From Shackletoniella antarctica (GTDB lineage Bacteria; Cyanobacteriota; Cyanobacteriia; Phormidesmidales; Phormidesmidaceae), in NCBI GenBank assembly GCA_003241845.1, contig QBMN01000032.1, positions 1-32,685 of the forward strand: a stretch of DNA of 32,685 bases, in the 5' to 3' direction. Positions 9,440 through 17,346 of the stretch are shown here, in pieces. Position 1 is the stretch's first letter. Every line of letters starts with the position of its first letter. The notes below the pieces were generated by a model that saw only the letters and a list, made by a program, of their open reading frames with translations, made no database searches and was not told the DNA's origin. Position numbers and translations under genes: made by a program.

Positions 9440-10660
9440 CTATTTCTTTGAAGCTGCGAAGTTTGCAGGGTTGCGCCCATGGGTTCTGAGCAGGCGTCGA
9501 TAGTGCTGGAGGTGCAGCTCAGCTGAGCGAGACCAGGCGTACTGGGGCAAAACTGCGCGGCTTTGCTCGACTAGCCCCTGGGCGATCGCCGCCTCTAGCA
9601 CCGCTAGCATGGCCTGGGCGATCGCCTCCACCGACCTCGGCTCCACCAGCAGCGCCTGGTCAGGGCTGAGAAACTCGGTAAAGGGCGGCTGGTCGGCGGT
9701 GATGACAGGGAGACCCGATGCGATCGCCTCTAGCACCACCAGCCCCCAGCCCTCTTTGGTAGAAGGGAAGCAAAATGCATCGGCGACGCGATATAGCGCG
9801 GGCAAATCGTCATCGGGGATCACCCCTGGCAGCAGGACAGATTTGCCCATCATTGGCCCGTGCTGTTGCTCTAGCTCTTTCGCCAGCGCCAAGAATTCCT
9901 GGCGATAGGGTTCGTAGTCAAACAGGGTGGCCCCGCCTGCGATCACCAGCTGCGCCTGGGGCTGGTGGGTCAGCACCTGGGCGAAGGCTGCTAACAGGCG
10001 GATAGAATTCTTGCGTGGTTCAATGCCGCCCACGGTGAGAAAGATGGGGGAACCTGTGAGGCCGTAGCGGGCTTTGAGGGCATCTTCTTGACCTGATGGG
10101 GTGGGCGAAAAGCGCTTAAGATCCACGCCGTTGATTACTCTGGGGGCAGCGATGCCGTACTCGTCGCGGAGGGCCGCCTGCCAGCGATCGCTCACGCACA
10201 GACACAAATCTGGGTGGCGAATCGACTGATCTTGGCACTGCCGCAGGTAGATGCTGGCGTAGTCTTCGATGTGGTGGACGGTTCTGACCACGTTGGCCAC
10301 TCGCCCCGCCTGCCTGAGCTGCCCTAGAGCGTTGGCCCCAATGCAGTCTTGGGCGTGGTAAATGTCGCAATTTTCTGCGGGGTGGGCCAAAAAGTAATCG
10401 ACAAATTCTTGAATGCGCTGGCGAATTAGCGCGTCAGTGGCCTGGTCGGGGGCAAGCCCGGTGGGCGGCGGCTGGGCGGGCACCAGCTGCACCCTGGCCG
10501 GAATCGCTCGATCAAAGCCCTGGCCGTCTTTGTCAAGGGCATAAACGCAGACCTGATGCCCCAATTCTGTCAGCGCCGTCGCCAGCTCCAGCGTGTGCAC
10601 TACGCTGCCCCGCAGCTTGGTAGCGTAGGTCAGCAGAGCCACATTTAGGGCAGGGGCCAT
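9440..10660 (-). CDS. MSMEG_0565-type glycosyltransferase (GT4 family)
   Basis: This 406-residue GT-B glycosyltransferase has an N-terminal acceptor domain (ALLTYATKLRGSVVHTLELATALTELGH) and a C-terminal nucleotide-sugar domain with VGGIEPRKNSIRLL and the E-x7-E motif in EGWGLVVLEA. MSMEG_0565-type enzymes are regular members of Nit1 clusters, and position at the end of this cluster supports that subfamily. Donor and acceptor are unknown. Its start overlaps the stop of the preceding Uma2 gene as TAATG, indicating translational coupling and the same operon. It is the last gene of the minus-strand cluster. Confidence 0.85.
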   Translation of the reverse strand: MAPALNVALLTYATKLRGSVVHTLELATALTELGHQVCVYALDKDGQGFDRAIPARVQLVPAQPPPTGLAPDQATDALIRQRIQEFVDYFLAHPAENCDIYHAQDCIGANALGQLRQAGRVANVVRTVHHIEDYASIYLRQCQDQSIRHPDLCLCVSDRWQAALRDEYGIAAPRVINGVDLKRFSPTPSGQEDALKARYGLTGSPIFLTVGGIEPRKNSIRLLAAFAQVLTHQPQAQLVIAGGATLFDYEPYRQEFLALAKELEQQHGPMMGKSVLLPGVIPDDDLPALYRVADAFCFPSTKEGWGLVVLEAIASGLPVITADQPPFTEFLSPDQALLVEPRSVEAIAQAMLAVLEAAIAQGLVEQSRAVLPQYAWSRSAELHLQHYRRLLRTHGRNPANFAASKK

Positions 10661-11214
10661 TAGAGAATTAACCAGCTGAAGATATCAGCGGCAGTGAGCG
10701 ATAGATCAAGGCCTTCAATGACGGGCAGCCGCGCCGCGCCTTCGAAAAACTGTACTCTTTGGTCGGGCCAGACAATCAGCACGGTCTCCTCGGCGGGGTC
10801 AATTAGCCAGCCTAGTTCAGTACCATGCTGGGCACAGTGGAGCAGATTGCTGAGCACTCGAGACTGGCTTTGGTCGGGCGACAAGATCTCGATCGACCAG
10901 TCGGGGGGAAGGTTAAACCGATTGACAATTCGCCCAGACGGCTGGCGAGGAATGCGATGCCAGCGAAAGACCGCTACATCAGGAACCACCGATTGATTGC
11001 CAAAGGTACAGCGCAGTTCTGGAAACGCCACTGCCACAGCGGCTTCTCTAGCCTGCTGATTGACGGTTTCGCAAAGCTGGCCTTGTAATAGGCTGTGTTC
11101 TCCCTGGGGCAGGGGCTTTTGAATAACTTTGCCGTTGATAAATTCTGCGGCGGGTTTGGTCTCAGGGAGGTCTAAAAACTCGTTAAGGGTGAGTAGTTGG
11201 GTGGCAATAGTCAT
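10660..11214 (-). CDS. Uma2-family protein (PD-(D/E)XK nuclease fold)
   Basis: Uma2 proteins are very numerous in cyanobacteria, and their in vivo function is unclear. This 184-residue copy carries the family core: E24 (AAEFINGK), P78-D79 (SVVPDVAV) and E109 (WSIEILSPDQS), the positions expected for a PD-(D/E)XK metal site, followed by GTELGWLIDP. It sits inside the Nit1-type cluster, 48 bp after the AIR-synthase-related gene, and its stop overlaps the glycosyltransferase start. I know of no established role for Uma2 in nitrilase clusters, so it may be a passenger insertion. A second Uma2 gene lies at 26429-27004. Confidence 0.87.
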   Translation of the reverse strand: MTIATQLLTLNEFLDLPETKPAAEFINGKVIQKPLPQGEHSLLQGQLCETVNQQAREAAVAVAFPELRCTFGNQSVVPDVAVFRWHRIPRQPSGRIVNRFNLPPDWSIEILSPDQSQSRVLSNLLHCAQHGTELGWLIDPAEETVLIVWPDQRVQFFEGAARLPVIEGLDLSLTAADIFSWLIL

Positions 11215-11262: not shown

Positions 11263-12279
11263 TTATGCAGATTGTGAGTCATTGGGTTGCCTAGGCTGGT
11301 CGCCGCCCCTAAACCCGGTGAGGGATTCGGTGGCGAAGTCCCAAAAGCAGAGGGCGGCATGGCTGAGCTGGAGGGTAAGGGTTTGGCCCTCGGTGATGTT
11401 GCCCACGGGGTGGCACCACAGCCCTCGATTGTGAAACTGGGGCTGAATTTGGGCCACGGCCTCGGGCCGCACGCTGAGCAGGTAGCCGTAGCTGGGGAAG
11501 CTGAGCAGCCAGGGCAGCAGTTCCACGCCGGGCGGGGGGGCGATCGCACCTAGATCCAGCACCGCCCCGCAGCCAGAGGTCTCTATCAGCATCAGCGTTG
11601 TGCCGACAATGCCGCCCATGCTGATGTCTTTGCCGGTGTCGCAGAGGCCCGCCTCGGCGAGCTGGGGCAGCAGTTCTAGGTTGGTGCGGAGGCGATCGCC
11701 ATCCGCCTCCGTCGCCGCATTCCAAAACGGGTACTGGGGGTGCATTTTCCCTGCCATATCGGTGACGTGCAGCAGCACATCCCCCGGCTGAGCGCTGAAG
11801 CTGGTGATCAGCCGGTTGGCCCGGCCCAAAATGGCCACCGACAGCGCCGCGTAGGGGCTGTGGCAGCTGGTGTGCCCCCCCACAATCGGCACGTTGAAGG
11901 CTTGGGAGGCGGCGACCATGCCCTGCCACAGGGGATCAACCAATTCTGGCGACTGGCTCCAGATCGTGTCTACAACTGCGATCGGGCGGCCTCCCATGGC
12001 GTAGATGTCGCTGACGTTGACCATCACGGCGCACCACCCGGCAAACCAGGGGTCGGTGTCCACTAGGGTGGGCCACATGCCCTCGGCGGCCAGCAGCAGG
12101 TAGCCGTCGCCGTCGGGGATGGCGGCGCAGTCATCCCCCAGCAGAATCGGTTCTTGGCTGGCCGACCGGACGTGGGCACCGAGGCGATCCGCCGCTGTTT
12201 GAATGTCTTGCTTGTGGAGAATGCCGAGCGATCGCCGCAGCTCGGCGGCCAGTTCCCGCAGCCTTAGCTCGTCGGTCAT
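11263..12279 (-). CDS. Sll0787-type AIR synthase-related protein
   Basis: This 338-residue protein belongs to the PurM/ThiL/SelD-like ATP-binding superfamily, subfamily Sll0787. The phosphate/metal-binding stretch GDDCAAI begins at residue 48. VMVNVSDIYAMGGRPIAVVDTIW is the typical dimer-core segment, and CDTGKDISMGGIVGT resembles the late ATP-binding motif. Relatives phosphorylate or cyclise small substrates with ATP, but the substrate of the Sll0787 group is unknown. It begins 7 bp after the GNAT gene stop, so the two are tightly linked. In some organisms Nit1 cluster genes of this group occur next to or fused with the GNAT. Confidence 0.88.
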   Translation of the reverse strand: MTDELRLRELAAELRRSLGILHKQDIQTAADRLGAHVRSASQEPILLGDDCAAIPDGDGYLLLAAEGMWPTLVDTDPWFAGWCAVMVNVSDIYAMGGRPIAVVDTIWSQSPELVDPLWQGMVAASQAFNVPIVGGHTSCHSPYAALSVAILGRANRLITSFSAQPGDVLLHVTDMAGKMHPQYPFWNAATEADGDRLRTNLELLPQLAEAGLCDTGKDISMGGIVGTTLMLIETSGCGAVLDLGAIAPPPGVELLPWLLSFPSYGYLLSVRPEAVAQIQPQFHNRGLWCHPVGNITEGQTLTLQLSHAALCFWDFATESLTGFRGGDQPRQPNDSQSA

Positions 12280-12286
12280 AGCGGCA

Positions 12287-12805
12287 TCACGACACCTGCT
12301 GCACCGACCAGGGCAGTTTTGGCCTCCCCTCGTCGCTTGGGGGATAGTGGGCCAGGTCAGCTTCCATCAGGTGGTGGGTGCGATCGCACAGCACCATTTC
12401 CTCCAGCGAGTCCCATTGGAGGCGCTGGAAGAAGCGCACGTTTTGCGCTTGCACGGTGGCAAGAAAGCGATCGCAGCCCCAGGTATTGGCCGTGGTCACG
12501 GCTTTGTGAATTAGCCCCTTGCCGATGCGCCCCACCCGGCGATAGTCGGGGTGTACCCCCAGCCGCCCGCCGTACCAAAGCCGAGACGACTTTTCGTAGA
12601 TCCGCACCACGCCCACCACGCGGTTCTCTGGAGGTGCTTCGTGGTCTGTGGCGACAATGGGGTAGGCGACGCCATCCAGATTATCCGCATCGTCATGGTC
12701 AAATAGCCCCTGTTCTTCGCAGAAAATGGCCTGGCGCAGGGCAAAGTAGCCCTCTAGGTCGAGGGGAGTTTTAGCGAGTTCAAAACTATAGCGGTGGAGT
12801 GCCAT
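12287..12805 (-). CDS. MSMEG_0567/Sll0786-type GNAT N-acetyltransferase
   Basis: This 172-residue GCN5-related acyltransferase of the Nit1 cluster type has an acetyl-CoA pyrophosphate-binding segment RLGVHPDYRRVGRIGKGLI (81-99), which fits the R-x-x-G-x-G/A pattern. The N-terminal FALRQAIFCEEQGLF is characteristic of the nitrogen-starvation subgroup. The acyl acceptor is not known. It lies 6 bp after the radical SAM gene and 7 bp before the AIR-synthase-related gene, so all three are surely co-transcribed. Confidence 0.9.
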   Translation of the reverse strand: MALHRYSFELAKTPLDLEGYFALRQAIFCEEQGLFDHDDADNLDGVAYPIVATDHEAPPENRVVGVVRIYEKSSRLWYGGRLGVHPDYRRVGRIGKGLIHKAVTTANTWGCDRFLATVQAQNVRFFQRLQWDSLEEMVLCDRTHHLMEADLAHYPPSDEGRPKLPWSVQQVS

Positions 12806-12811
12806 GGTCGT

Positions 12812-13900
12812 TTAACTCTCAAACGTAGACAGGGCCGAGCACGCGCCGCACTTGGCGCAGCCCGCTTTCATATCCGCCGAGGCCATGCCCGACTGCTTTA
12901 GCAGCGCCCCCACCCGCTGGTAGAGGGCAAACATAAACTCGCTGCTGGGAGCAGGATGATTTGACAACGGTGTCTCGCCAATGGGCACAAAGGGCACCAC
13001 GAAGGGGTAGACGCCCAGGTTGATCAGGCGATCGCTCGCCTCCACTAGAGTTTCTAAGCTGTCGCCTAGGCCCGCCAGCAGGTAGGTGCTCACCTGACCC
13101 CAGCCAAACACCTGCACCGCCGCCGCAAAGGCTTGGTAGTAAGCCGTCAGCGGTACCTCAGCCTTGCCGGGCATAATTTTGGCCCGCACTTCAGGGTCTA
13201 CCGCCTCCAGGTGCATGCCCAGGCTGTCAATGCCCGCCGCCTTCATGCGCCCAAACCAGGTGAAATCATCCGGCGGTTCGCACTGGGTCTGAATGGGCAG
13301 GTCTGGCACCCGCTGGCGAATGGCGGCGGCGCATTCGGTCAGGTAGGCGGCACCGCGATCGCTCGAATTTGGCGTGCCCGTGGTCATAATCATGTTCGTC
13401 ACCCCATCGAGCCGCACGGCAGCTTCGGCCACCTCCGCGAGCTGCGCCGGGGTTTTGCGGGCAATGGTGCGCCCGGCATCCAGAGATTTCTCAATGGCGC
13501 AAAATTGGCAGGCGGTGGCGGGGTCGCGGTAGCGCATACAGGTCTGCTGCACCGTGGTGGCCAGCACATCGCGCCCGTGCAGCAGAGCAATTTTTGAGTA
13601 GGGAATGCCGTCGGCGGTGGTGAGGCCGTAGAACTTGGGCGGGTTGGGCAGGTCGATGGGGGTGATGGCCTCCCCCGATGCTTCTAGATGCAGCGGGCTA
13701 GCTTCCGTAGCCCTGATGGTGTAGGGAGAGCGGGCAGCGCTATCGGTGTAGACCGGCACCATGACCGTGGTGCCGTCGATGGTGATGGCGCGGTGGTCAG
13801 AGGGGCCTGCGCCGCCCCGCCGTCCTGCGGCCCCTGGGGTCGAGTCTACCAGCCGCAGCCCGTGGGTTTGTAGCTCAGTAATTAGCCGCTGTTTGTTCAT
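12812..13900 (-). CDS. MSMEG_0568-type radical SAM protein
   Basis: This is a probable radical S-adenosylmethionine enzyme of the Nit1 cluster, with unknown reaction. Instead of the usual C-x3-C-x2-C, its cysteines are C121-x9-C131-x2-C134 (TCMRYRDPATACQFCAIEKS), as I recall for this subfamily. A C-terminal C348-x2-C351-x2-C354 set (GCAKCGACSAL) could bind an additional cluster. The middle resembles lipoate/biotin synthase-like barrels (MIMTTGTPNSSDRG; LGMHLEAVDPEV). I chose the ATG at 13900 because family proteins start near MNKQRLITELQ. An in-frame TTG at 13921 with CAGG 6 nt upstream would add seven residues. The gene follows the nitrilase after a 147-bp gap with repeats. Confidence 0.9.
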   Translation of the reverse strand: MNKQRLITELQTHGLRLVDSTPGAAGRRGGAGPSDHRAITIDGTTVMVPVYTDSAARSPYTIRATEASPLHLEASGEAITPIDLPNPPKFYGLTTADGIPYSKIALLHGRDVLATTVQQTCMRYRDPATACQFCAIEKSLDAGRTIARKTPAQLAEVAEAAVRLDGVTNMIMTTGTPNSSDRGAAYLTECAAAIRQRVPDLPIQTQCEPPDDFTWFGRMKAAGIDSLGMHLEAVDPEVRAKIMPGKAEVPLTAYYQAFAAAVQVFGWGQVSTYLLAGLGDSLETLVEASDRLINLGVYPFVVPFVPIGETPLSNHPAPSSEFMFALYQRVGALLKQSGMASADMKAGCAKCGACSALSTFES

Positions 13901-13990
13901 GGCCTGCCGTTCAATACCCAATAAAAACCTGCGTCAATCAGCGCCACCCCTGACGAGCGACCCTTTTACAAAAAAAAATTTGACTTTGAA

Positions 13991-14068: not shown

Positions 14069-15106
14069 CTAGGTTGCGGGAAGCTCTACTCCGCTGGGAA
14101 AGGGGCTAACGGACTCTGCCTCCACAAGGGAAGCCTGTACTGCCCCATCGGCCAGGGGAGAAACCTCTCTGGCGGCGGGCGTTTCTACCACCGACCAGGG
14201 TTCGGCGTTCACCTTGAGGCGCAGCAGGTCGGGGCGGGCGTAGTGGCCCACCGAGTCCATCATCCGTTTGCGCTTAGTGATTAAAGAGAAGTCGAGATCG
14301 GCGATCGCCAACCCTTCCCCCTCAGTAATCGGCTCGGTCAGCGGCACCCCCTCCGGGCTGATGATGGCGGTGTAGCACCCCCCCGACAGCACCCGATGCA
14401 GATTCTCATCGGGGGTAATTTGCTGCCTTTGCTCTGGGGTCAGCCAGCCCGTGGCGTTGACCACAAAGCAGCCCGACTCCAGCGCGTGGTGGCGCATGGT
14501 GACCTCCATTTGGTCGCCAAAGATCTGCCCCACCATCGACCCCGGAAACTGACCGCAGTGGATCTGCTCGTGCTGGGTCATCAGCGCGTAGCGGGCGAGA
14601 GGGTTGTAATGCTCCCAGCAGGCCAGAGCGCCCACACGCCCCGCCGCCGTTTCCACCACCTTTAACCCAGCCCCATCGCCCTGGCCCCACACCATGCGCT
14701 CGTGGTAGGTGGGGGTAATCTTGCGCCGTTTGAGCACCAGGGTGCCGTCGGCGTCAAAGATCAGCTGGGTGTTGTAGAGGGAACCGGCCTCGCGCTCGTT
14801 GACTCCCAGCACCACCACCATGCCGTAGGACCTCGCCGCTCGGCTCACCGCATCGGTCACCGGCCCCGGCACTACCACCGCCTCTTCGTAGAGCCGCAGG
14901 TGCTCTTTACCCATGAGCACGGGCGGCTGCACAAAGGAAAAGTAGGGGTAGTAGGGAATGAACGTCTCTGGAAAGACAATGAGTTGGACGCCAGATTGGG
15001 CGGCCTGGGCGATGGTTTCTAGCACCTTTTCGGTGGTGCCTTCGCGGCTAAAGAGCACCGGGCTGACTTGCACGGCGGCAGCGCGAACGGTTTTGGTGTA
15101 ATCCAT
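14069..15106 (-). CDS. Nit6803-type nitrilase
   Basis: This carbon-nitrogen hydrolase converts nitriles to carboxylic acid plus ammonia. The catalytic triad is E47 ([11 protein letters not shown]), K129 ([20 protein letters not shown]) and C163 ([11 protein letters not shown]). These equal E53, K135 and C169 of the characterised Synechocystis Nit6803 shifted by six. At 345 residues it is full length. Nit6803-type enzymes form helical oligomers and act on aromatic and aliphatic nitriles, but the native substrate is uncertain. Nit1C clusters containing this enzyme have been linked to growth on cyanide as nitrogen source. It follows the Sll0783-like gene after a 95-bp gap carrying repeats, in the same NtcA-type operon. 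Confidence 0.94.
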
Positions 15107-15201: not shown

Positions 15202-15684
15202 CTACATCGTCCAGGTGTCGAGAATGAAGGCCCCTTCTTTGCGGTGCATGAGCACAATATCAAGCACGTCGAGGGGGCTAATGGGGCGAATGCCGGGGAT
15301 AAGGGAAGGCTCGCCGTGGCCATAGAGCGCCTGGAGGGCAAAGCGACAGGCGTAAATCTTGCAGCCCATCTCTAGCAGCTTGACGACCTGGTTATTCATC
15401 GCCAAGTGACCAGGGAAAGCCTCGTCGCCCAGTTTGGGGAAGCCCCGCTGCACGCCCAGGGTGACGCCAGGGCCGTAGAGCAGCACCGAGGTCTCAAAGC
15501 CCTTGCGAATCAGGCGGGTAGCTTGCAGCAGGTTCACAAGACCAATGGAGCCTTCAAAGGCCACAGTGTGAAAGGTGACGAGGGCTTTTTCGCCCGGCTC
15601 GGCCTGCACATCGGGAAATACTTTTTCTTCGTAATCAACCAGAAAATCTCCAGCCTGGTGGGCTGGCGTAGTTACTTCGGGCAT
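15202..15684 (-). CDS. MSMEG_0572/Sll0783-type nitrogen-starvation response protein
   Basis: This 160-residue protein resembles Synechocystis Sll0783, which is strongly induced by nitrogen starvation and needed for normal polyhydroxybutyrate accumulation. The molecular activity is unknown. The sequence ([66 protein letters not shown]) suggests a DsrE/DsrF-like fold with conserved cysteines near residue 110. The ATG follows a strong GAGGAG with 9-nt spacing. It is the first gene of the minus-strand cluster, transcribed from a promoter with a perfect NtcA site (15744-15785). Confidence 0.91.
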
Positions 15685-15743
15685 GAATTTTAGCTCCTCG
15701 CAAAATTGCTGGCAGCGCTGGATATCTGGCTGCTTATTTCAGC

Positions 15744-15785
15744 ACCTTAGGGGCGATCTTTTAGAGTTCTCGTATCAGCAACTAC
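15744..15785 (-). promoter_or_regulatory. NtcA-activated promoter for the minus-strand nitrilase operon
   Basis: The palindrome GTATCAGCAACTAC (15772-15785) matches GTAN8TAC. Exactly 22 nt away toward the minus-strand gene is TAAGGT (15749 down to 15744), matching TAN3T. This is the standard layout of NtcA-activated promoters, where NtcA replaces the -35 box. The start of transcription should fall near 15737, giving a leader of about 50 nt before the ATG at 15684. Confidence 0.82.
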
Positions 15786-15977
15786 AAACGTTAGAGGTCT
15801 GCCCTAATCAACAGGGGTAGGGGCGGGCCAGCGCTCTTAAACTCTCTAGCCAACGAGTACCCCTGTCGAAAGTGATAGGGGGTAGCGCCCAATTAACCCC
15901 GATCGCATCGGCAAGAGAGCAACAACAGCGCAATCACAGCCCCCCTCCCTCCCACTAGCGCTAGATCAAGGCTTTCG

Positions 15978-16019
15978 GTAGCCGCAGTTACAAGCAGCCC
16001 CAAGACAACGGCCTACGGT
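15978..16019 (+). promoter_or_regulatory. NtcA-activated promoter for the flavoprotein gene
   Basis: GTAGCCGCAGTTAC (15978-15991) matches GTAN8TAC, and TACGGT (16014-16019) matches TAN3T after exactly 22 nt. A transcript would start near 16026, about 40 nt before the ATG at 16066. The arrangement mirrors the minus-strand promoter 190 bp away, so both arms of the cluster should respond to nitrogen limitation together. Confidence 0.82.
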
Positions 16020-16065
16020 ACAAAAAAGCAGACTCGCTCATTTCACACCACTCCCAGGTTTCACT

Positions 16066-17346
16066 ATGGCTATGCACTATGGCGTAATCGTGATCGGCGG
16101 CGGCCAGGCGGGGCTGTCGATCAGTTACTGCCTCAACCGCTTGGGCATTGACCACATGGTCTTTGAGCAGCACCAGATCGCCCACTCCTGGCGCACCAAG
16201 CGATGGGATTCATTTTGCCTGGTCACCCCCAACTGGCAGTGCCAACTGCCCGGCTTTCCCTACCCCGACAATGACCCCGAGGGCTTCATGCCGCGCGACG
16301 CCATTGTGGAGTATATCGAGCGCTACGCCAGCCACTTCAACCCGCCCATCAAGACGGGGGTAAAGGTAGAACAGGTGAAATCTCGCGAAGGTCTTGGGTT
16401 TGAGGTCATTACCGACCAGGGTAGGTTTACCGCCGACCAGGTAGTGGTGGCCACGGGTGGCTACCACACGCCCAAAATTCCTCGCCTAGCGGAGCGGCTA
16501 GCAACCGATGTGGTGCAGCTGCACTCGGCAGAGTACCGCAACCCGGAATCGCTGCCAGAGGGAGCCGTATTGGTGGTAGGGACGGGGCAGTCGGGCTGTC
16601 AGATTGCTGAAGACCTGCACCTGGCGGGCCGCAAGGTACACCTGTGTGTGGGGGGTGCGCCGCGATCGCCCCGGCGCTACCGAGGCAAAGACGTGGTCGA
16701 ATGGCTTGACCAGATGGGCTACTACGACCTGGCGATTGATGACCACCCGCAAAAAGAGACCGTGCGCCATAAGACCAACCACTACGTCACCGGGCGCGGC
16801 GGCGGGCGCGAAATTGACCTGCGCCACTTTGCCGTCCAGGGCATGGGTCTGCACGGTCGGTTGACCGATATTCAAGGCACCCAGCTGACTTTTAGCGCAG
16901 ACCTGAAAAAAAATCTCGACAAAGCCGACGCCGTCGCCGAAAGCATCAAGCGCACCATCGACACCTACATCGAAAAGAACAATATTGACGCGCCCCTGGA
17001 CCCGCCCTACCGCCCCATGTGGGAACCGGAGGCGGTTGACACCGGCATCGACTACCGCAAGGCCAACATCACCTCGGTAATCTGGTGCATTGGCTACGGC
17101 CTCGACTTTAGCTGGGTTGAGCTACCCGTGTTTGATGGCCAGGGCTACCCCGGTCACCGCCGGGGCGTGACCACCGCGCCGGGGCTGTATTTCCTTGGCC
17201 TGCCCTGGCTCTACACCTGGGGGTCGGCCCGATTCTCGGGCATTGCCCGCGACGCAGAGTATTTGGCCGAGCAGGTCGCCGCCCGAGCCGGGGGCAGTCA
17301 TCTCCGTGCACTGCAAACCGTCAATGAGGTGGCGATCGGGTCTTAG
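16066..17346 (+). CDS. MSMEG_0569-type flavin-dependent oxidoreductase
   Basis: This 426-residue protein resembles flavin-containing monooxygenases. An FAD-binding Rossmann motif GGGQAG (11-16) and a second, NAD(P)H-binding GTGQSG (172-177) flank VVVATGGYHTPKIP. Conserved segments SWRTKRWDSFCLVTPNW and LYFLGLPWLYTWGSARFSGI are typical of the subfamily. The substrate is unknown. An oxygen-using step fits models in which the Nit1C cluster oxidises or captures cyanide-derived compounds, but this is inference. The ATG at 16066 has AGG 7 nt upstream. It is the only plus-strand member of the cluster and has its own NtcA-type promoter. The MSMEG_0570-type small protein often found nearby is not visible downstream. 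Confidence 0.92.
   Translation: MAMHYGVIVIGGGQAGLSISYCLNRLGIDHMVFEQHQIAHSWRTKRWDSFCLVTPNWQCQLPGFPYPDNDPEGFMPRDAIVEYIERYASHFNPPIKTGVKVEQVKSREGLGFEVITDQGRFTADQVVVATGGYHTPKIPRLAERLATDVVQLHSAEYRNPESLPEGAVLVVGTGQSGCQIAEDLHLAGRKVHLCVGGAPRSPRRYRGKDVVEWLDQMGYYDLAIDDHPQKETVRHKTNHYVTGRGGGREIDLRHFAVQGMGLHGRLTDIQGTQLTFSADLKKNLDKADAVAESIKRTIDTYIEKNNIDAPLDPPYRPMWEPEAVDTGIDYRKANITSVIWCIGYGLDFSWVELPVFDGQGYPGHRRGVTTAPGLYFLGLPWLYTWGSARFSGIARDAEYLAEQVAARAGGSHLRALQTVNEVAIGS

Follow-up and report, generated by a model that had tools for sequence, protein, structure and literature searches.

Outward-facing NtcA-type promoters with additional conserved dyads in a Nit1C cluster of the cyanobacterium Shackletoniella antarctica point to a second regulator

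The DNA analyzed here, called the window in the following, is a stretch of 32,685 nucleotides from Shackletoniella antarctica. Proteins encoded in its central part scored above the cut-offs of seven NCBIfam models, and on the basis of this gene content the genes are assigned to a Nit1C (nitrile/cyanide assimilation) cluster (Table 1). A minus-strand arm, which starts with the gene of the Sll0783 family protein (sll0783), and a plus-strand arm, which starts with a flavoprotein gene, diverge from an intergenic region of 381 bp. The Uma2 family gene within the cluster is probably an accessory insertion. A search for viral relatives of Sll0783 gave 61 pattern matches, none of which was confirmed. 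As a separate observation, among 20 other 20-kb regions compared a Uma2 gene occupied the same position in one (L195).

Table 1. Genes of the Nit1C cluster and sequence elements of the intergenic region (window coordinates).
Feature	Position	Strand	Remarks
MSMEG_0565 family glycosyltransferase (TIGR04047)	9440..10660	-	
Uma2 family protein (PF05685)	10660..11214	-	flanked by the glycosyltransferase and AIR synthase-like genes
sll0787 family AIR synthase-like protein (TIGR04049)	11263..12279	-	
MSMEG_0567/Sll0786 family N-acetyltransferase (GNAT; TIGR04045)	12287..12805	-	
MSMEG_0568 family radical SAM protein (TIGR04043)	12812..13921	-	
Nit6803 family nitrilase (TIGR04048)	14069..15106	-	
MSMEG_0572/Sll0783 family nitrogen starvation response protein (TIGR04044)	15202..15684	-	first gene of the minus arm
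TAN3T -10 box TAAGGT, operon side	15744..15749	-	22 nt from NtcA box
NtcA-type box, sll0783/nitrilase operon side	15772..15785	-	GTAGTTGCTGATAC on the minus strand
O2 dyad, operon side	15798..15815	-	CCTGTTGATTAGGGCAGA; 12 bp upstream of NtcA box; 2/12 mismatches
O1, central dyad common to both arms	15862..15879	.	CCTGTCGAAAGTGATAGG; 76 bp to operon-side box, 98 bp to flavoprotein-side box
O2 dyad, flavoprotein side	15948..15965	+	CCTCCCACTAGCGCTAGA; 12 bp upstream of NtcA box; 3/12 mismatches
NtcA-type box, flavoprotein side	15978..15991	+	GTAGCCGCAGTTAC
TAN3T -10 box TACGGT, flavoprotein side	16014..16019	+	22 nt from NtcA box
MSMEG_0569 family flavin-dependent oxidoreductase (TIGR04046)	16066..17346	+	starts the plus arm

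In canonical NtcA-activated promoters a GTAN8TAC site is combined with a TAN3T -10 box, and the centre of the site lies at -41.5 (PMC3898017). A first-pass annotation of this DNA had placed two such promoters in the intergenic region, facing outward and each with a gap of 22 nt between the two boxes. Direct reading of the sequence confirmed all box coordinates, both gaps and the orientation. The operon-side NtcA box reads GTATCAGCAACTAC on the plus strand (15772-15785), where the -10 box appears as ACCTTA (15744-15749) and is separated from it by the 22 nt of positions 15750-15771; on the flavoprotein side the gap of 22 nt extends from 15992 to 16013. The GTAN8TAC core is perfect in both promoters, as in class II sites, and TAN3T at N22 on both sides corresponds to a box centre at about -41.5 according to the definition in PMC3898017. 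The same annotation had called the boxes perfect palindromes, which is true of the GTA/TAC cores and not of the N8 stretches. Judged from this layout, transcripts are predicted to start near 15737 on the operon side and near 16026 on the flavoprotein side. A gene for NtcA is present in the genome (G000:C110:9100-9678; 385.5 bits compared to a cut-off of 244.95). Two further perfect GTAN8TAC cores, 144 bp apart, are located at positions 105-118 and 249-262 of the window and lack a TAN3T box at N22.

The GTAN8TAC core by itself is weak evidence. It occurs five times in the window, which is mildly unusual (shuffle mean 1.77; five or more in 5 of 100 shuffles). The full pattern GTAN8TAC-N22-TAN3T matched 15 times in the genome of 4.71 Mb, compared to 6 matches of a reversed-pattern control. 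Within the window its sole matches are the two promoters described above. When the 381-bp intergenic region was shuffled 20,000 times with dinucleotides preserved, an outward-facing pair of full patterns never arose, and 17 shuffles contained at least one full pattern. As far as sequence can tell, the two promoters of the window are very likely real NtcA promoters.

The sll0783 gene was detected in 22 of 38 relatives searched, the own genome counted. The flavoprotein gene was divergent in 18 of the 22 loci read, and in 16 of these 18 both boxes were perfect and combined with a gap of N22 or N23. In the two exceptions mismatches affected the cores (L024, one core with one mismatch; L027, both cores). 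In a larger sample, 18 of the 20 divergent loci of the same genus, the window included, had two perfect boxes at N22/23; the remaining locus of this genus (G019) is co-directional and has one box. Across the class, 54 divergent loci had complete intergenic regions, and 31 of them carried both perfect boxes. In a separate set of named loci, a perfect box facing sll0783 with TAN3T at N20-24 was found in 32 of 53 cyanobacterial loci. A perfect NtcA core was missing from 26 of 27 loci classed as non-cyanobacterial by their record titles, of which up to 500 nt were read. The exception, L071, is a contig of a metagenome-assembled genome labelled Tatlockia and has a Nit1C promoter of the cyanobacterial type that includes an NtcA box; this contig is probably mis-binned. 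Divergent picocyanobacterial loci showed neither boxes nor dyads at the stringencies used, which included an unrelaxed NtcA motif. Divergent loci of the Synechococcus/Cyanobium type (L080, L082, L091, L100, L113, L114, L116 and L117) had neither GTAN8TAC with TAN3T nor the O1 dyad described below. In loci such as L049 and L054-L056 the flavoprotein gene precedes sll0783 by 61-189 bp in the same direction, and no box toward sll0783 was found.

When upstream regions were aligned on the NtcA box, two further elements came to light, O1 and O2. O2 is an 18-bp dyad, CCTRTC-N6-GAYAGR, for which up to 3 of 12 mismatches were allowed. Upstream regions were read for 150 of the 153 genomes with sll0783 (G275, G294 and G303 were left out), some of them short (G117, 85 nt; G158, 263 nt; G214, 353 nt). 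Of the sll0783-facing promoters, 105 combined a perfect box with N22/23; O2 lay at a gap of exactly 12 bp in 95 of these, and 39 of 43 genera had at least one match. On the second side, 25 of 36 flavoprotein-facing promoters and 7 of 11 genera showed the same arrangement. The genus-weighted frequencies at gap 12 were 0.89 (43 genera, sll0783 side) and 0.61 (11 genera, flavoprotein side). The background median over gaps 0-139 was 0 and the neighbouring spacings were near zero; the next-highest values on the sll0783 side, at gaps 75 and 76 (0.33 and 0.30), are those of O1. None of 8 other GTAN8TAC-N22-TAN3T sites read in the own genome was accompanied by O2 (6-10 of 12 mismatches). Since the dyad patterns were learnt from the same loci, matches there arise partly by construction. 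Consequently, the weight of the O2 evidence lies in the single exact spacing, its recurrence on the second side and the controls, and not in the number of matches.

O1 is the only CCTRTC-N6-GAYAGG site of the own genome. Of 73 gaps between it and the NtcA box on the sll0783 side, 63 measured 75-77 bp, and the others were 54, 64, 74, 89, 96, 97 (three times) and 98 (twice). On the flavoprotein side the gaps include 57, 68, 80, 87, 98, 107, 120, 122, 144 and 153. The best-fit period was 10.5-11 on both sides, with a phasing R of 0.73-0.79 for the distinct gaps on the sll0783 side and a weaker 0.56-0.58 on the flavoprotein side, each based on few independent values. Because the values are few and the gaps 89, 80, 122 and 144 fit the period poorly, helical phasing of O1 is suggestive only. 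The position of O1 was kept whether the flavoprotein gene was divergent or co-directional. In close relatives (L009-L025) the six-base centre of O1 reads ACTTTC or its reverse complement GAAAGT, as if it had been flipped.

The loose pattern CCTRTC-N6-GAYAGG was considered as a genome-wide marker and dropped: it had at least one site in 149 of 291 genomes of the class, and the reversed control was also frequent. On account of this low specificity a tight pattern was used instead. It matched 31 sites, distributed over 30 of 388 genomes, compared to 5 sites for the reversed control; by its letters it misses the Nodosilinea-type loop. Of the 30 tight-dyad loci read (the site G042:C24 lies outside these), 25 contained sll0783, four (L149, L150, L156 and L161) the flavoprotein gene only, and L163 neither of them. 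A Nit1C gene was present at 29 of the 30.

One conserved neighbour with a GAF domain and a helix-turn-helix (HTH) recurred in 9 of 20 Nit1C regions of 20 kb. This candidate regulator of about 480 amino acids scored above the gathering thresholds for GAF and GerE (LuxR-type HTH) in all six homologues scanned, and its HTH matches solved domains of the LuxR/NarL type. We refer to it as the GAF-LuxR protein. In the own genome the gene is located on another contig (G000:C177, L228:1684-3189; match at G000:C177:1735-3189 with 621 bits), and its product aligns to positions 7-477 of the 477 model positions; the Pfam domain calls come from the homologues. In a sample of 388 genomes drawn evenly from the class, 126 of the 153 genomes with sll0783 encoded the GAF-LuxR protein, as did 13 of the 235 without it. 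Presence was scored at about 240 bits or more on at most four candidates per genome, so absences are soft. The association also held within families (Cochran-Mantel-Haenszel p = 9.5e-24 for four large families, tables tallied by hand). The two genes lay at most 10 kb apart in 41 genomes. In the same genus, four genomes without sll0783 also lacked the GAF-LuxR protein, and of 21 genomes with sll0783 only G019 lacked it; here the regulator gene adjoins the cluster only in G015.

Carriage of the regulator was also compared with the promoter elements. Both perfect boxes were present in 29 of 36 divergent loci with complete intergenic regions from GAF-LuxR carriers and in 2 of 18 from other genomes, the latter belonging largely to one picocyanobacterial family. 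The module O2-N12-NtcA-TAN3T, with at most one mismatch in the NtcA site, occurred in 106 of 124 carriers and 4 of 26 non-carriers; among 3,000 shuffled upstream regions it appeared once. Scored by genus majority, 45 genera had both regulator and module, 11 the regulator only, 2 the module only and 11 neither. Carriage and site match imperfectly: the module is missing from 18 of 124 carriers and present in 4 of 26 non-carriers. O1 was also present in some non-carriers (G019 and G133). LuxR-type proteins bind dyads of about this size with CCT-type half-sites (lux box). The size and half-sites of O1 and O2 thus suit a LuxR-class protein, which we regard as a lead only. Searches of open-licence papers yielded no description of O1/O2 and none of a GAF-LuxR protein acting on Nit1C. 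In Synechocystis, Sll0782 is listed among ammonium-repressed regulators (PMC10094980), and sll0782 is described in PMC5318462 as a helix-turn-helix gene without known function. The neighbouring gene number suggests that sll0782 may be the orthologue of the candidate regulator.

Upstream of the regulator gene itself, a GTAN8TAC core was found within 450 nt in 21 of 30 homologous loci, the own locus excluded, and in 19 of these 21 the core precedes the estimated start by 18-28 nt. With the own locus counted, 1 of 31 loci had a perfect box combined with TAN3T at N20-24 in the scanned sequence, and 4 had one when a mismatch was allowed. No NtcA core was found in the 450 nt before the assumed start of the own copy. 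Judging by these upstream sequences, the regulator gene may be under NtcA control in other loci. In L198-L227 such cores often have, in place of TAN3T, a conserved CTCAAT at about 22 nt downstream.

The first-pass annotation had taken the symmetry of the two NtcA boxes as a sign that both arms are induced together under nitrogen limitation. Sequence, genome content and conservation agree with the NtcA layout and with coordination of the two arms; the symmetry itself comprises more than two NtcA promoters. A second dyad at a fixed 12 bp and a third dyad common to both sides suggest that control probably does not rest with NtcA alone. The intergenic region likely contains two conserved composite promoters, each with the order O2-12-NtcA-22-(-10) and with O1 in common, and a second factor very probably acts at O1 and O2. 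Co-occurrence and gene adjacency make the GAF-LuxR protein a reasonably good candidate for this factor. Taken as a whole, an outward-facing pair of composite promoters under NtcA and a dedicated second regulator is probably the best explanation of the locus.

In such an arrangement NtcA together with 2-oxoglutarate would bind each GTAN8TAC site as a class II activator and recruit RNA polymerase to the TAN3T box. The second, dedicated regulator would occupy both O2 dyads and the central O1 and would contact NtcA or the polymerase on the same face of the DNA. O1 and O2 are presumably bound by one protein, and we infer that this protein activates rather than represses. Both arms would then be expressed jointly under nitrogen shortage, provided that a second signal is present. 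We slightly favour a switch with two keys, in which NtcA would report nitrogen shortage and the GAF-LuxR protein a second cue via O2/O1, perhaps cyanide, nitrile or redox state, with a possible feed-forward from NtcA to the regulator in many species.

Four other explanations were weighed. O1 and O2 could serve a different regulator, either a global factor or a member of some other HTH family, while the GAF-LuxR protein co-occurs through the shared pathway. Association is not binding, the gene lies away from the cluster in this genus except in G015, and the carriers without the module also fit this possibility. It nevertheless appears unlikely, as the GAF-LuxR protein is the sole recurrent GAF+HTH neighbour in the 20-kb loci, and the near confinement of exact-match dyads to Nit1C argues against a global factor. 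Two plain, independent class II promoters would be sufficient for the NtcA layout taken alone, which fits canonical activated promoters (PMC3898017), and the dyads would then be incidental and retained through recent common descent. This is clearly improbable in view of the single exact spacing that O2 keeps on either side, of its presence in 39 of 43 genera, with neighbouring spacings near zero, and of O1 being kept in divergent and co-directional arrangements alike. A bidirectional terminator or other hairpin at O1 would account for its near-perfect inverted repeat, for a loop found in both orientations and for its location after the flavoprotein gene in co-directional loci. This reading was rejected as very improbable: the distance of O1 is fixed to the NtcA box and not to the stop codon, its position is independent of the orientation of the flavoprotein gene, and between divergent arms it precedes both promoters, where no terminator should be needed. 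Finally, GTAN8TAC is common and the genome-wide control indicates that many full patterns are chance matches, but the shuffled intergenic regions and the conservation of both boxes with their spacing make it hardly credible that the boxes arose by chance and that the cluster lies outside NtcA control.

We therefore retain the pair of composite promoters, probably served by NtcA and a dedicated second regulator. The trigger and the function of cyanobacterial Nit1C are unsettled, and a composite operator with a candidate sensor regulator makes the missing signal testable. The locus also offers a clean example of a putative pathway regulator site fixed at one exact spacing from NtcA.

The genes of the window cluster are orthologous to those of the Synechocystis sll0783-sll0787-ssl1464 operon (Nit1C). 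In that organism the sll0783-ssl1464 operon is reported to be suppressed by ammonium (PMC10094980) and Sll0783 to be increased in nitrogen starvation, in a study in which its function could not be pinned down (PMC3901256). Nit1C has also been reported in an Antarctic cyanobacterium (PMC9716671). In Pseudomonas, a pathway regulator gene likewise stands beside the same enzyme cluster, and its product NitA is a Fis-family, sigma54-dependent regulator (PMC11049912). Unlike NitA, the cyanobacterial candidate combines GAF with a LuxR-type HTH and is paired with NtcA boxes. With canonical class II promoters of the glnA, nirA, urtA and ntcB type the window shares GTAN8TAC, TAN3T and the -41.5 spacing; it differs from them in that its promoters are paired outward, each with O2 at 12 bp upstream and with O1 in common. 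The promoter of nitrate assimilation is activated by the global regulator NtcA at -41.5 and by the pathway-specific activator NtcB upstream. By analogy, the same logic of two activators is proposed for the Nit1C promoters of the window, with the difference that NtcB is a LysR-type protein with another site, unlike the GAF-LuxR candidate.
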